Assembly: GCA_003243255.1 (NCBI GenBank)
Contig: QFQM01000010.1
Span: forward strand, 1-62,603
Origin: Flavobacterium psychrophilum
GTDB lineage: Bacteria; Bacteroidota; Bacteroidia; Flavobacteriales; Flavobacteriaceae
DNA length: 62,603 nt
Direction of reading: 5' to 3'
The position numbers were made by a program, and so were the translations under genes. Below are positions 24,440 to 57,646 of this stretch, one piece after another. Every line of letters starts with the position of its first letter. The stretch's first letter is position 1. Below the pieces are notes generated by a model, which was given only the letters and a program-made list of their open reading frames with translations, had not been told where the DNA came from and did not search any database.

Positions 24440-24984
24440 TAAGAGTTGTTTTTCTCCCTTATGCGTTTGTAAAATTTATAGCCCAGCATCAGCAATATCG
24501 AAAATACGATAATGCCCACTACCCCAAATATCCAGTTGATGGCACTCTTTAGTATCACTAAAAACACAACTGCAAAAAGTATGATGGTTGCCCCTTCGTT
24601 CCATAGTCGCATAAAACCTGTGCTGTATTTTACCTCATCGTTTTGCAATTGCTTAAAAATGCTGTGGCATTTAAAGTGGTACAAAAACAGCAGAAAAACG
24701 AATGTAAGTTTTACATGCATCCAAGGTTGCTGTAACCACTGCGGCATGATACATAAAAGTGTTATCGCAAAGATAGTTGCCAATACCGCCGACGGCCAGG
24801 TAATGATATACCAAAGCCTGTAGCTCATCAGCTTGTATTGTTTGATAAGGATCTCTTTTTCGGGTGAGGGCTTATCATTGGCCTCTATGTGGTATACAAA
24901 CAGCCTCACAATATAAAACAGCCCGGCAAACCAGGTGATTACAAATATAAGGTGCAGTGATTTTATGTAGTTGTAGTATTCCAT
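24439..24984 (-). CDS. hemJ: HemJ-type protoporphyrinogen IX oxidase
   Basis: A 181-residue integral membrane protein of the UPF0093/CopD-related HemJ family, which oxidises protoporphyrinogen IX to protoporphyrin IX. Signature residues: the N-terminal helix with conserved His (YIKSLHLIFVITWFAGLFYI), the next conserved His in VRLFVYHIEAND, the MHVKLTFVFLLFLYHFKCH segment, and RLWNEGATIILF near the C-terminus. Start is the ATG at 24984, which shares one base with the upstream stop (TAATG); an in-frame TTG lies six bases earlier. CopD is the alternative family, but the close linkage to hemH favours HemJ. Confidence 0.85.
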   Translation of the reverse strand: MEYYNYIKSLHLIFVITWFAGLFYIVRLFVYHIEANDKPSPEKEILIKQYKLMSYRLWYIITWPSAVLATIFAITLLCIMPQWLQQPWMHVKLTFVFLLFLYHFKCHSIFKQLQNDEVKYSTGFMRLWNEGATIILFAVVFLVILKSAINWIFGVVGIIVFSILLMLGYKFYKRIREKNNS

Positions 24985-25568
24985 TACCAATTTTGAAATT
25001 CAAAAAATTTAATTTTCGACGCATTTAAAGAGTTTTCATATTCTAAAATTTCTTTAAAAGTTTTATCTGTAAACCCCTGATTATCGTACCAAATATCATC
25101 TGCTGGATATGTACAAACACCATTTGTCAATTCGGCAAATATAGCACTTGTTAATAAGGCGAAGCGTAACTGAAAGCTATCTCCCGAATGCCAAACAAAA
25201 TGCACTTCTTTTTTACAATCTTTTAACCTGTCTTCAATTTCCTGAGCTGCAAATTGAATTTCAGGTTGTTTTTTACCAATAAGTTTCTCAAAAAAAGATT
25301 GCTTTGGTCTCATATCCTCTTTAGCCTTCTGAAGATTAAAATCACCAATATATAATTCAAAGCCGCTTATAAGATCTTTTTCCTTTAATGTATCAAGATG
25401 TGGATTTGACAACCTGAATTTAAACGGCAAAAAACCTGCATTCTCTCCATTAAAGTTAAATTCAGGGTGAACTTCAGTAACCATATCATAATCATTAAGC
25501 CTCTTCATCATTTGAGGAATCAAATCATTCGAAACTTCTTTGCAATAGACAATAATTTCTAAACTCAT
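24984..25568 (-). CDS. Hypothetical cytoplasmic protein, 194 aa
   Basis: No family recognised. The protein has no signal peptide or membrane helix. It begins with a beta-type segment (MSLEIIVYCKEVSNDLIPQM), has a charged middle with Lys/Gln-rich KKQPEIQF, and ends with an aromatic tail (KIKFFEFQNW). The gene is visibly more AT-rich than its neighbours, which hints at a later arrival, yet it is coupled on both sides: 6 bp after the MATE gene and overlapping hemJ by one base. Confidence 0.7.
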   Translation of the reverse strand: MSLEIIVYCKEVSNDLIPQMMKRLNDYDMVTEVHPEFNFNGENAGFLPFKFRLSNPHLDTLKEKDLISGFELYIGDFNLQKAKEDMRPKQSFFEKLIGKKQPEIQFAAQEIEDRLKDCKKEVHFVWHSGDSFQLRFALLTSAIFAELTNGVCTYPADDIWYDNQGFTDKTFKEILEYENSLNASKIKFFEFQNW

Positions 25569-36540: not shown

Positions 36541-36999
36541 ATGGCTGATACCTATTCTCAAATATATATACAAATCGTTTTTGCCGTAAAAGGCAGAGAT
36601 AATCTCATATCATCAAGATGGAAAGATGAATTGTATAAATATATAACCGGGATTATTACTAACGAAGGCCAAAAGTTACTTGCCATAAACGGAATGCCTG
36701 ACCATATACACATACTGATAGGGCTTAAACCAACAGCAACTTTGTCCAATATAGTTAGAGATATTAAAGCCAATTCATCAAAATTTATAAACGAAAGAAA
36801 ATGGATTGCAGGCAAATTTGAATGGCAACAGGGATTTGGTGCTTTTTCGTATAGCCATTCACAATTGACAAATGTTATTACCTATATCCAAAATCAGGAA
36901 GAGCATCATAAAACAAAAACATTTAGGGAAGAGTACATCGAGTTCCTGAATTTATATAATATTGATTTTAAAAATGAATTTATTTTTGAGGATGTATGA
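36541..36999 (+). CDS. REP-associated tyrosine transposase (Y1/IS200-like)
   Basis: A 152-residue single-strand DNA transposase of the Y1/HUH class. The HUH pair is H55 and H57 in PDHIHILIGL; the nucleophilic tyrosine is Y115 in NVITYIQNQEEHH, with Q119 next to it. Size is that of TnpA of IS200/IS605 and of REP-associated tyrosine transposases (RAYTs). The flanks favour a RAYT: six GCNCCGGNGGNGC-type hairpins with a CATATTTATAG tail surround the gene, in both orientations. The motif residues are all present, so it may be active. It sits inside the heme region, just before hemB. Confidence 0.9.
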   Translation: MADTYSQIYIQIVFAVKGRDNLISSRWKDELYKYITGIITNEGQKLLAINGMPDHIHILIGLKPTATLSNIVRDIKANSSKFINERKWIAGKFEWQQGFGAFSYSHSQLTNVITYIQNQEEHHKTKTFREEYIEFLNLYNIDFKNEFIFEDV

Positions 37000-41043: not shown

Positions 41044-41094
41044 TGTAACTGAAACTGAAAAAAATTTAATAACTAATATTAATTGATTACGATT

Positions 41095-41592
41095 ATGAAA
41101 ACTTTAAAATTATCTGCTCTTGCACTTGTAGGTGCTTTCTTCTTTGTTGCTCAGGGTGCTTCTGCACAAACAGCTACTGCAAAAAAAGCTGCTGCTGCTC
41201 CTGCTGCCGCTGCTACACAAGAAGCTCCAAAAAACATGACTCCATCTGGAATCACATGGAAAGAAGACACTCACAACTTTGGTGATATTGAAAAAGGTAA
41301 ACCGGTTTCTCACGAGTTTACTTTCAAAAACACTACAAAGCAGACTGTACTTATCACTAACGTAAAAGCGTCTTGCGGATGTACAGCTACAAACTACACT
41401 AAGACTCCTGTTAAACCGGGTGAGTCTGCTACTGTAACTGCAACTTTTAACGCTGCATCTCCGGGAAGCTTCACTAAAAACGTAACTGTTACTACTAATG
41501 ACAGCGACGTTAACAAAATCCTTACTATCAAAGGTAAAGTTTTAGCTCCTGCTACTGAGGCTGCTCCGGCTGTTGCTCCTTCAGCTAACTAA
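41095..41592 (+). CDS. DUF1573 domain exported protein
   Basis: A 165-residue secreted protein. The signal peptide (MKTLKLSALALVGAFFFVAQ to ASAQ) is followed by an Ala/Lys-rich linker, then the DUF1573 immunoglobulin-like domain: THNFGDIEKGKPVSHEFTF, the VKASCGCTATNYTKTPV segment with the conserved cysteine pair, and GSFTKNVTVTTND. Start is the ATG at 41095; a TTG four codons earlier is in frame. Role is structural or unknown. Codon use is strongly biased and regular, as in a highly expressed gene. It ends at a good terminator. Confidence 0.9.
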   Translation: MKTLKLSALALVGAFFFVAQGASAQTATAKKAAAAPAAAATQEAPKNMTPSGITWKEDTHNFGDIEKGKPVSHEFTFKNTTKQTVLITNVKASCGCTATNYTKTPVKPGESATVTATFNAASPGSFTKNVTVTTNDSDVNKILTIKGKVLAPATEAAPAVAPSAN

Positions 41593-53557: not shown

Positions 53558-54910
53558 TTACCCTATAACTTTAAACAGTTTGTCAGAAAGACGGATCCTG
53601 AACGGAACACTGAAGGTAACTTTATCGCCTTTTGCAGCGATTGTCCCATCCTGACCGTTAACACGCATTTTCTCGATAACCAGTTGCTGCTCGCCTGTAG
53701 TAGGACCTGAGATGATTACCGTATCGCCAACAGCCAGTTCGTTTTCCATGATAAACTGTGCTACTTCTGCTTTCGGGAAATAGTGCTCGCCTTTACCCAC
53801 CAGTGTTTTTCTGATTCGTGGGCGAACAGTTTTCGTTTTGGCAACCGTCCCTAAGGTAACATCAGAAATTTCAGTTCCGGTTTTCTTGAAGATTAGGCGG
53901 TCGGCTTTTCCTTTTTTAAAGATCATGTTGCCGTTCATAATACCACGACGTAATGCTCTCTGCTCTTCAACCGGCAGGTTAACCACATCCTGGCATGCTT
54001 CCGAACAACAGTTTTGTGAAGCATCCTTACACTCATCACACTGAATAAACAGCAGGTGACAAGCCTCGTTAGCACAATTAGTGTGGTTGTCGCATGGCTT
54101 ACCGCACTGGTGGCACTGCGAAACGATATCGTCGGTAATACGCTCACCAAGGCGTGCGTCGAACACGAAGTTCTTACCTATGAATTTGCTTTCTAATCCT
54201 TCAGCCTTTACCTGGCGGGTATATTCAATGATACCGCCCTCAAGCTGGTACACATTCTGGAAACCTTTGTGCTTAAAGAACGCCGATGCCTTTTCGCAAC
54301 GGATACCTCCTGTACAGTACATCAGCAGGTTTTTGCCTTCTTTATGCTCTGCCAATTGCTCTTCAATAATAGGCAACGACTCACGGAACGTATCAACATC
54401 CGGAGTGATGGCACCACGGAAGTGACCGATCTCGCTCTCGTAGTGGTTACGCATATCGACCACGATAGTATTCGGGTCTTCCAGCATATCGTTAAACTCC
54501 TGTGCTTTCAGGTGCACCCCTATATTGGTCACATCAAAAGTCTCGTCGTTAAGTCCATCGGCAACGACTTTATCACGAACTTTGATGGTAAGTTTAAGGA
54601 ACGAAAGGTCGTCCTGCTCCACCGCCACGTTAAGGCGAATATCTTTCAGGAACGGGATAGTATCAAGGTGGTCTTTGAATTCGTAGAAATGATCAGCCGG
54701 AAGCGAAAGCTGGGCGTTGATACCCTCTTTGGCAACGTAAATTCTTCCTAAAACCTCCAGTGGGTTCCAGGCTAAGAAAAGCGAATCGCGAAATTGTTTT
54801 GGATCAGAAATGTGTGCGTAGGCATAGAAAGACAGCGTAAGGCGCTGTTTACCGCTTTCCTCGATCAGGGCGGTTCTTTCCTCTGCGCTTAAAGTGTTGA
54901 ACAGTTGCAT
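53558..54910 (-). CDS. trhO: TrhO-type tRNA uridine hydroxylase (rhodanese family)
   Basis: A 450-residue protein that adds an oxygen at U34 of some tRNAs, related to E. coli YceA/TrhO. An N-terminal acylphosphatase-like part (AYAHISDPKQFRDSL, RIYVAKEGINAQLSLP) precedes the rhodanese domain with C199 in MYCTGGIRCEKASAF. A Cys-rich region (CHQCGKPCDNHTNC to CCSEACQDV) and a further C-terminal domain follow, longer than in E. coli (about 350). Start at the ATG at 54910; a TTG three codons earlier is in frame. Confidence 0.9.
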   Translation of the reverse strand: MQLFNTLSAEERTALIEESGKQRLTLSFYAYAHISDPKQFRDSLFLAWNPLEVLGRIYVAKEGINAQLSLPADHFYEFKDHLDTIPFLKDIRLNVAVEQDDLSFLKLTIKVRDKVVADGLNDETFDVTNIGVHLKAQEFNDMLEDPNTIVVDMRNHYESEIGHFRGAITPDVDTFRESLPIIEEQLAEHKEGKNLLMYCTGGIRCEKASAFFKHKGFQNVYQLEGGIIEYTRQVKAEGLESKFIGKNFVFDARLGERITDDIVSQCHQCGKPCDNHTNCANEACHLLFIQCDECKDASQNCCSEACQDVVNLPVEEQRALRRGIMNGNMIFKKGKADRLIFKKTGTEISDVTLGTVAKTKTVRPRIRKTLVGKGEHYFPKAEVAQFIMENELAVGDTVIISGPTTGEQQLVIEKMRVNGQDGTIAAKGDKVTFSVPFRIRLSDKLFKVIG

Positions 54911-55002
54911 GCTATACAATTTTAAGTGAGATATTTTCAGTATGTTGTTGGTTCACAATGGCGGAACCGGCTGCAAAGGTAGAAAAATTATATTATTACC
55001 GA

Positions 55003-56463
55003 CTAATTATTGTTTGACAGATCTAATATTTCTTGTAAAGAGGTTTTGTTTTTAATAAGATATTCAAGTTTATTTCTATCAATAATAATGATATTTATAT
55101 TACGAGCTAAATCATTTTTATTTACAATGGCGTTCGTAACAAAAATCAATTTAACATTTTCATAATTATGATTACTTAAAAATTTTGATTCTAACAATGA
55201 AATTTTTTTTCTCTTCAAAATTTTAAATTCAAAAAAACACTTTATACCATTATATTTTGCTGACAAATCTACTCCTGTATCATTTCTTAATGACACATCT
55301 GTAATTTCAGTAAAACGATTCTTTTCAAGTATATATTTAAAAAACTTAGCAAATGACAATTCATTCATTTCATCAATATCACTAATGGTAATTTTATCTT
55401 GATAATTATCAATAGTTTGAACATCAACAATGTTTGAATATTGTTGAATATCATTAATTTCAATTATTAAGACACCGTCTTTATACAGAATGTAATGACT
55501 GTTAGAATTTTCAACATCAATATCTTCTTCATACTCTCGAAAATTAAGAAATCCTTCATAGGAAAGCAGTTCACTATCAACCCCCACAAATAAAAACTTT
55601 TGATCATCAATTTTATAAAATGATCCCGCAAAACTTTTATTATCATAATTAACCATAGGTCCATTAAATAGTAAATCTCTAAAATCCCTATTTTTTAAAT
55701 TTTGTTCAGGTAATGTGATTGAACCTTCTAACCTTTTTCTCATTTGAGAATAATATTTACTCAATCTACTATTCACTAAAAAACTAAACACTGAAGCGTA
55801 ATGACCTGCTCTTAAAATATGATTTTCCATAATTGGGGAAATTTCACCAGTAGTTATAGGAGGATCAATAAATCTATTGGTACTAATACTATCCTCATTC
55901 AGAACTGTAAGAGAAGCTACTCTAACATCGCCAGTTTCTCTACGCTTTTGCGCAATTGCATTAGCCCGCTGGTTATTTGATGTTTGAATACTAATTGCTC
56001 CTTTGGCTTCAACAACTAAAACTCTATTGTCTACCATCTGACATTTCCAATCCGGACGTTTAGTATTTCCATAAATTCTCTGAATAGTAGATGTCTTAAT
56101 ATTAAAAAGTTTTTCAGCAATTGCAACAGAAATTCCAACACCAAAATCCTCCGAAATTGTTTTTATAGTTTCAGAACCCGTAGCTTGTCGAATATCTGCT
56201 ATCTTTATTCTAAATTCATTTGTGTTTGAATAAATTTTTTCAACCAAATCTGCTTTATCTAAGAATTTCATTCTATTTGAAGGCGCAAATCTTCTGGTTT
56301 GTATAGCCCCTATATTATATATTAGCTTATATAAATTAATATTAATTATTCTACTTGTAGTTACTTTATCTAAAGTATTCAAATCTGGTAGCAAAAGAGG
56401 ATCAATTTCTACAGAAATCTGTCGATTCATAAAATGCAGTGCCATGTCTCTTATAAATGCCAT
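55003..56463 (-). CDS. Unrecognised protein with two PD-(D/E)XK-like motifs
   Basis: A 486-residue protein clearly more AT-rich than its neighbours. Two possible nuclease cores: P137-D138 with E152-A-K154 (RPDWKCQ then VLVVEAKG), and D399 with E412-F-K414 (GVDLSAKYNG then CFFEFKI), the second after a helix EMNELSFAKFFKYILEKN, as in Mrr-like restriction enzymes. A helix-turn-helix-like stretch (FGVGISVAIAEKLFNIKTSTIQRIY) precedes the first core. It lies alone between trhO and recA. A restriction or anti-phage role is inference; I recognise no named family. Confidence 0.6.
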   Translation of the reverse strand: MAFIRDMALHFMNRQISVEIDPLLLPDLNTLDKVTTSRIININLYKLIYNIGAIQTRRFAPSNRMKFLDKADLVEKIYSNTNEFRIKIADIRQATGSETIKTISEDFGVGISVAIAEKLFNIKTSTIQRIYGNTKRPDWKCQMVDNRVLVVEAKGAISIQTSNNQRANAIAQKRRETGDVRVASLTVLNEDSISTNRFIDPPITTGEISPIMENHILRAGHYASVFSFLVNSRLSKYYSQMRKRLEGSITLPEQNLKNRDFRDLLFNGPMVNYDNKSFAGSFYKIDDQKFLFVGVDSELLSYEGFLNFREYEEDIDVENSNSHYILYKDGVLIIEINDIQQYSNIVDVQTIDNYQDKITISDIDEMNELSFAKFFKYILEKNRFTEITDVSLRNDTGVDLSAKYNGIKCFFEFKILKRKKISLLESKFLSNHNYENVKLIFVTNAIVNKNDLARNINIIIIDRNKLEYLIKNKTSLQEILDLSNNN

Positions 56464-56641
56464 AATTAATTTACCGTAAATAAGTTTCGATACTAAAACT
56501 ACAAAACTTTCCTTAACATTCTACCCAATTGTAAGAAATTATTCAACATGCTTTTCCAAAAATAAACTTATCCACAACCCTCATCCTCACATTGCCACAC
56601 CAAAAAAAAGCATTATTTTTACCCAAAATCATATACAAAAA

Positions 56642-57646
56642 ATGAGCGGAGATAAAGAAGCAAAACTGAAGGCGTTACAGCTTACATTAGATAAACTGGA
56701 CAAGGCTTACGGTAAAGGAACGGTGATGAAACTGGGCGACCAGGCTGTTGAAGAAGTTGAAGCAATCCCTTCAGGATCGTTGGGTGTAGACCTTGCCCTT
56801 GGCGTTAACGGCTACCCTCGCGGAAGGATAATAGAAATATACGGACCTGAATCGTCAGGTAAAACCACACTTACGCTTCACGCTATTTCTGAAGCGCAAA
56901 AAGCAGGTGGTATCGCTGCCTTTATTGATGCGGAGCACGCGTTTGACCGTGTGTATGCAGAAAAACTTGGTGTAGATATCGAAAACCTTATCATATCGCA
57001 GCCGGATAACGGTGAACAGGCACTTGAAATTGCTGAAAACCTTATCCGTTCGGGTGCTATTGATATCGTAGTAATCGACTCGGTTGCGGCACTTACGCCT
57101 AAGAGCGAGATCGAAGGCGAAATGGGAGATTCTAAAATGGGTCTTCACGCTCGTTTGATGTCTCAGGCACTTCGTAAACTTACGGCTACTATCAGCAAAA
57201 CCAACTGTACGGTATTCTTTATCAACCAGCTTCGTGAAAAGATCGGTGTGATGTTTGGTAATCCTGAAACCACTACCGGTGGTAACGCACTTAAGTTCTA
57301 CGCTTCGGTAAGGATAGACATCCGCCGTGCAGCGCAGATAAAAGACGGTGAGAATGTAATTGGTAACCGCACTAAAGTGAAGATCGTTAAGAACAAAGTG
57401 GCACCTCCTTTCAAAACGGCAGAATTCGACATCATGTATGGCGAAGGCGTTTCTAAAACAGGTGAGATTCTTGACCTTGCAGTGGAGTTTGAGATCATCA
57501 AGAAATCGGGCTCATGGTTTAGCTACGGCGATACCAAATTAGGCCAGGGACGCGATGCTGTAAAAGCGCTGATAAAAGATAATCCGGAACTCGCTGAAGA
57601 GCTGGAACTGAAAATAAAAGAGATGATAAAAGAACAGGCATCTTAA
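56642..57646 (+). CDS. recA: Recombinase RecA
   Basis: The 334-residue strand-exchange protein and SOS co-protease. Walker [11 protein letters not shown] is near residue 70, the catalytic glutamate follows in [17 protein letters not shown], and Walker [11 protein letters not shown] and the L2 loop ([19 protein letters not shown]) are intact. Length is normal for Bacteroidota (about 335). A TATTTTTA near-match lies about 25 bp before the ATG. I see no SOS box that I could name. It ends at a strong terminator. Confidence 0.97.

Follow-up and report, generated by a model that had tools for sequence, protein, structure and literature searches.

A lone nuclease-like gene with two conserved active-site motifs in a variable trhO-recA junction of Flavobacterium: a candidate defence nuclease

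Introduction

What is the role of a solitary, AT-rich gene lodged between two core genes of a Flavobacterium genome? The gene considered here encodes a protein of 486 amino acids (aa) and lies between trhO and recA in a 62,603-nucleotide stretch of DNA, hereafter the window, from Flavobacterium psychrophilum (assembly GCA_003243255.1, contig QFQM01000010.1, positions 1 to 62,603). A preliminary description, made from the sequence alone, had proposed an acquired single-gene defence or restriction factor with two PD-(D/E)XK-like nuclease cores. We find that this is an acquired, conserved, two-motif nuclease-like gene. We put at roughly 60% the probability that the gene spreads horizontally, sits in a small defence slot at the trhO-recA junction and encodes a nuclease acting on its own against phages (or plasmids).

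Results

An AT-rich gene is inserted alone between trhO and recA

The open reading frame (ORF) has the coordinates, strand and length first given for it (Table 1). Its guanine-plus-cytosine (GC) content is 0.277, against 0.420 for the remaining window, and is the lowest among the window's 50 non-overlapping ORFs of at least 150 aa; at third codon positions (GC3) the value is 0.168, versus 0.50 for trhO and 0.43 for recA, in line with the earlier statement that the gene is more AT-rich than either neighbour.

The edges of the insert were set by comparison with locus L038 of G035, the closest genome examined, whose RecA protein is 99.7% identical. Homology between the two ends at position 54985 (98.6% over 286 bp) and picks up again at position 56533 (96.8% over 372 columns), such that the insert comprises the single gene with 69 bp upstream and 17 bp downstream. 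It holds no operon partner and no methylase, as had been claimed, and its neighbours are trhO and recA. At the same breakpoints G035 carries a different, AT-rich insert of 2.2 kb, encoding a ParE-type toxin (PF05016), a 78-aa ORF and a 520-aa ORC-CDC6-like ATPase; the 78-aa ORF matches no family above the cut-off and would be an antitoxin by position only. The ATPase, present at L038:3357-4919 (-) and L092:4437-5999 (+), is a defence candidate itself.

A copy of the 486-codon gene occupies the trhO-recA junction of Flavobacterium sp. NRK1 too, and copies at loci L002 and L007 are located elsewhere. The L002 copy, from Cellulophaga (L002:4761-6524), is followed by a small opposite-strand helix-turn-helix (HTH) regulator (PF01381), a possible partner that is absent from the window insert.

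Relatives carry different cargo at the same junction

The comparison covered 42 loci, namely the window, NRK1, 20 taken from the 30 best recA matches among 61 genomes and 20 taken from the 30 best matches to the trhO flank among 396 genomes. The trhO-recA gap could be measured in 15 of the 42 loci. Two of these (L047 and L088) have a gap with genes of ordinary composition; the remaining 13 have divergent trhO/recA pairs, separated by 175 to 2,662 bp.

The family gene is the junction content in the window and in NRK1, and the junction of L044 is empty (175 bp). Elsewhere we found a Shedu-family gene (L098), a HigB toxin with an HTH protein and the PADLOC candidate pair PDC-M02A/B (L096), HepT with a nucleotidyltransferase (MNT; L091), a DpdB/DndB-like gene (L089), ParE with the ATPase (L038), the ATPase alone (L092), a membrane protein of the 8xMP family (L097), ORFs without a match above the cut-off (L040 and L095), and an uncharacterised open frame running into the opposite strand of recA (L090). 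Toxin-antitoxin or defence profiles are matched at five of the ten other occupied junctions (L038, L089, L091, L096 and L098). In this Flavobacterium clade the space between trhO and recA acts like a small exchange site, taken up by AT-rich genes of the defence, toxin-antitoxin or unknown kind (L038, L089, L091, L092 and L095-L098), and the synteny check suggested in the preliminary description accordingly finds a variable junction whose contents differ among relatives.

On its opposite flank, recA is separated from the sigma-factor gene by 530-596 bp in 12 of the 13 loci with divergent pairs (there was no sigma-factor hit in L091). Elsewhere among the 42 loci the spacing is 525-563 bp in five and 776 bp in L053. 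The recA-sigma distance is constant, and the variation seen in this clade is therefore confined to the trhO side of recA. The variable edge may belong to the trhO side: in two loci where recA was not found within the fetched stretch, trhO has near it a PIN-domain gene (L093:642-1282 (-)) that is preceded by a small partner upstream, or an AriA/OLD-like ATPase (L107:1424-3391 (-)). In a further locus a 477-aa AT-rich protein adjoins trhO (L094:611-2044 (-)); neither Pfam nor PADLOC matches it at E <= 0.01, and the contig ends before recA.

In the literature searched, mostly without subscription papers and including PMC12839542 and PMC10121019, neither the family nor a defence slot between trhO and recA is mentioned; we regard this silence as weak evidence of novelty.

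Two active-site motifs are conserved within one chain

Starts of the pattern D-x(10-20)-[D/E]-x-K number six in the protein, compared with a mean of 3.3 in shuffled sequences, and 16% of 2,000 shuffles reach six; the PD-led pattern occurs once in the protein and in 6.7% of shuffles. Taken alone, the D...E-x-K pattern is weak evidence for a nuclease core. We take both of the motifs singled out beforehand to be real because they are conserved among homologues, the second one even within the fastest-evolving part of the protein. In an alignment of 128 distinct family sequences, including the window's own (the best 120 per search, pooled, of 164 family members), D138, E152 and K154 are invariant, as are Q172, K173 and several other N-terminal residues, and P137, which precedes D138, is kept in 127. 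All three residues of the second triad, D399/E412/K414, are present in 114 of the 128; in five short proteins the triad is incomplete and in nine it is substituted (four with K to R). Among the sequences extending that far, each of the three residues is kept in 96-99%. Mean identity to the window protein falls from 66.5% (residues 1-267) to 51% (residues 268-345) and 40% (residues 346-486), with the N-terminal domain being the most conserved part and the C-terminal domain the fastest-evolving one.

The C-terminal third is firmly predicted to be an Mrr-like PD-(D/E)XK domain. In the window copy, Pfam Mrr_cat (PF04471) matches residues 363-469 (E 3.2e-4; 21.2 bits, with a cut-off of 21), which bears out the Mrr-like setting ascribed to the second core. 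Forty of the 128 family sequences were scanned for domains (E <= 0.05), and Mrr_cat is found in 35 of them, PDDEXK_9 in eight and Hjc in seven. Among the PADLOC models, that of the ZorD Mrr-like nuclease (PDLC00631) has the widest match, with 16 members, and those for Cas4, Cas4d, Cas2d and PDC-S02 match one or two members each; NCBIfam gives two stray single matches and nothing for the window copy. One explanation that these matches invite is a modification-dependent (type IV) restriction enzyme, cutting only DNA that carries foreign base modifications, with a C-terminal domain as in Mrr or MspJI. We consider this unlikely, since Pfam scans detected neither a modified-base reader domain nor the Mrr N-terminal domain, and since Mrr_cat is not specific to such enzymes, being common to many other nucleases.

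The structural model of the C-terminal domain has a PD-(D/E)XK fold close to that of enzymes including Can2, Cdn1 and Card1, which are signal-activated nucleases. Together with the toxin genes in the same slot of relatives, this likeness speaks for an abortive-infection nuclease, which, once activated by a phage trigger, would kill the infected cell by degrading its DNA or RNA. However, Pfam scans found no CARF or other ligand-sensing domain, and the insert lacks an antitoxin or partner; we therefore hold this explanation to be doubtful as well.

An N-terminal core of PD-(D/E)XK-like character is supported by the invariant motif together with a weak fold match: the model of residues 1-267 weakly resembles mainly PD-(D/E)XK nucleases. 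The N-terminal 345 residues of the window copy match no Pfam family above the cut-off, and sequence searches of solved structures gave only chance-level matches. Some fold likeness to Hjc resolvases occurs in both halves; in the second-look fold lists, absence of a fold family does not exclude that family. Of the two cores originally described, then, the C-terminal one stands on profile and fold, with the second half modelling as PD-(D/E)XK, and the N-terminal one on its invariant motif and weak fold match. An HTH-like stretch described at residues 105-130 is not supported by the models, the region lying mostly within one long modelled helix (97-119 or 97-120). We also set aside a duplicated nuclease domain, as the N- and C-terminal domain profiles show no similarity, in what is a weak test given an effective sequence number (Neff) of about 2 for the N-terminal domain.

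The family is sporadic, and purifying selection acts on the window and NRK1 copies

A protein search, which scored only the 7,995 candidates with the most shared words, returned 164 family proteins at E <= 0.01, counting that of the window, such that the gene is no orphan, as it had been called. A profile search of the protein database again returned 164, with four of the 120 listed being absent from the first list, and a search with the N-terminal domain alone returned 155 proteins of the same family (lengths of 323-546 aa among the 120 listed). Short forms aside, no other architecture appears among those 120 of 155, within the length limits that apply. The preliminary description did not recognise the family, and for the whole protein it is indeed one without a name in Pfam, NCBIfam and PADLOC.

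Five short members (P0068, P0078, P0115, P0125 and P0128) end before a complete second active site. Four of them may be fragments, the longest contig of the cluster being at most 2.6 kb. P0125 (359 aa) stops at residue 359 and lacks the C-terminal nuclease domain; the longest contig of its cluster is 61 kb.

The distribution of the family in genomes is sporadic. In the genus sample the gene is present in one of 398 genomes, that of the search centre, NRK1, rather than in all related genomes; one further weak match, in G164 (E 7.8e-4, residues 255-428, 24% identity), was dropped as chance, and its frame looks like a metallophosphoesterase. The family, order and phylum samples have it in 2 of 397, 1 of 246 and 1 of 395 genomes, each count including NRK1. 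Besides NRK1, the gene was found only in G469, from the family sample, and in a single Cellulophaga assembly out of 18 of that genus. Source names among the family proteins include Kordia, Maribacter, a Cytophagales metagenome-assembled genome and Pseudoalteromonas distincta, which suggests transfer across phyla. Carriage by phages or plasmids was rejected, with no tblastn match at E 1e-5 in phage and plasmid collections; in viral_contigs, 26 stretches matched a pattern and none was confirmed.

This distribution bears on whether the protein could be a housekeeping nuclease for DNA repair or recombination, akin to Holliday junction resolvases and placed near recA. The gene does adjoin recA, and family members match the Hjc profile (7 of the 40 scanned) and a phage Holliday junction resolvase PHROG (9 of the 40). 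Nonetheless, we judge a repair role improbable, given that NRK1 alone among the 398 genus genomes has the gene, that the G035 junction lacks it, that its composition is foreign and that unrelated genes enter the same slot.

Between the window and NRK1 copies, the nonsynonymous rate (dN) is 0.050 and the synonymous rate (dS) 0.396, a ratio of 0.13 that is similar in all three domains; the protein has therefore been kept working. Between the same two genomes, dS is 0.68 for recA, 0.78 for the sigma-factor gene, 1.39 for PSP1 and 1.65 for trhO. The lower dS of the insert gene, relative to these four nearby genes, hints that the gene was exchanged after the lineages split, although A/T-limited codons could account for part of it. 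A low dS and a very compact insert with one nuclease gene would also fit a selfish element of one gene, spreading into the slot with the help of the nuclease that it encodes. We find this very improbable, because G035 has unrelated cargo at the same breakpoints and the L002 and L007 copies sit elsewhere, quite apart from the possible contribution of codon restriction to the low dS. Composition, rarity and the junction swap all agree with the acquired single gene at a variable site that was initially proposed.

Table 1. Positions in the window of the gene, its domains and motifs, the insert and its flanks.
Feature	Position	Strand	Basis or remark
Gene for 486-aa protein with two PD-(D/E)XK-like motifs	55003..56463	-	ORF list, homologue alignment
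N-terminal domain, residues 1-267	55663..56463	-	PD-(D/E)XK-like core, then C-terminal helices
First active-site motif, D138...E152-x-K154	56002..56052	-	Alignment of 128
Middle segment, residues 268-345, beta-rich	55429..55662	-	Without family match
C-terminal Mrr-like PD-(D/E)XK domain, residues 346-486	55006..55428	-	Profile and fold
Second active-site motif, D399...E412-x-K414	55222..55269	-	Alignment of 128
Whole insert at trhO-recA junction	54986..56532	.	Edges by comparison with G035 (locus L038)
trhO, left core-gene flank of variable slot	53558..54919	-	
recA, right core-gene flank of variable slot	56642..57646	+	

Further frames of the window with low GC3 (0.25-0.28) lie at 24984-25568 (-), 36541-36999 (+) and 41083-41592 (+).

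Discussion

The single-gene defence factor of the preliminary description has two parts that fare differently: the acquired lone gene stands on several lines of evidence, and the predicted defence role is well supported by position, namely by the Shedu-family and toxin-antitoxin genes in the same slot of relatives. We propose that the near-unchanging N-terminal domain would be the main catalytic core, with the fast-changing Mrr-like C-terminal domain probably serving as a second nuclease and target reader that recognises a DNA end, a modified base or an unusual structure. Acting singly or, more probably, as a dimer, the protein would cleave both strands of invading DNA, and host DNA would be spared because it contains no trigger. 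This would be the logic of Shedu, achieved with different domains. A more ambitious proposal, which we advance tentatively and at clearly less than even odds, is that the proteins form a new family of stand-alone defence nucleases with two distinct PD-(D/E)XK sites per chain, one in a near-unchanging core and one in a fast-evolving, Mrr-like partner that chooses the target, and that they occupy an apparently unreported recA-trhO slot of Flavobacterium, whose cargo can equally be a Shedu-family or a toxin-antitoxin gene.

Several observations weigh against a defence nuclease of this kind. The surveyed loci were chosen by likeness to the window, so that the tally describes one clade rather than the genus, and the slot also accepts genes without an assigned role. 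At L002 and L007, where two neighbours of each copy were scanned, there is no defence gene, the sole regulator being the HTH protein noted above. PADLOC matches nothing in the window copy. The N-terminal domain has no sequence-family match and no Foldseek match at E <= 0.001; the full model likewise has none at that threshold, the best being Cdn1 (E 7.3e-3). The profiles of the two domains, both of low diversity, are unlike each other, and the division of labour suggested for them is inferred from conservation rates. Lastly, the C-terminal triad is substituted in 9 of 128 family sequences, and P0125 indicates that a family form without the C-terminal domain may exist, which lowered our odds slightly.

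With this analysis the self-contained nuclease defences gain a single-gene candidate whose two putative active sites are mapped. Since two conserved active sites lie within one chain, their roles are directly testable by one-residue changes. The compact slot between two core genes may also serve as a natural screen for defence genes: whatever fills the trhO-recA slot of a newly sequenced Flavobacterium genome can fairly be considered a defence candidate, and the same goes for the ORC-CDC6-like ATPase and the unnamed genes found there.

Comparison with known systems

The gene differs from type II restriction-modification systems in that its insert holds one gene and no adjacent methyltransferase. 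Archaeal Hjc and related resolvases share with the family a PD-(D/E)XK core, and some fold likeness extends to both halves; however, the listed Hjc chains have 109-130 residues, in contrast to a sporadically distributed protein of 486 aa with two cores. The family shares its C-terminal catalytic domain with Mrr and other Mrr_cat proteins (PF04471), but the Mrr N-terminal DNA-binding domain was not found in it by Pfam profile test. The nuclease part of Zorya ZorD is similarly Mrr-like, as the PDLC00631 matches indicate, whereas the window copy has no helicase match in Pfam and its insert no further gene. Unlike the CRISPR ancillary nucleases Can2, Card1 and Cdn1, the family gave no CARF match in Pfam scans (the fold comparison leaves CARF possible), its insert contains no CRISPR genes, and its N-terminal half resembles a second nuclease.

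Among known systems, Shedu (SduA) is the best working analogue. By membership, the family is not Shedu: neither the window copy nor the 40 members match SduA_C/DUF4263 in Pfam or PADLOC, BLASTP likeness to the Shedu-family protein of L098 is at chance level only, and the family protein has a second conserved PD-(D/E)XK motif, in its N-terminal half. Shedu, which senses DNA ends and cuts as a nuclease, is described as a PD-(D/E)XK enzyme whose N-terminal clamp binds to the ends of DNA (PMC12904381), and a nuclease variant of a Shedu with another N-terminal domain is reported to lose protection (PMC12137116). The likeness is that Shedu, too, is a defence nuclease encoded by a single gene, in which a PD-(D/E)XK domain at the C-terminus is joined to a variable other half; moreover, the trhO-recA slot of one relative (L098) is filled by a Shedu-family gene.
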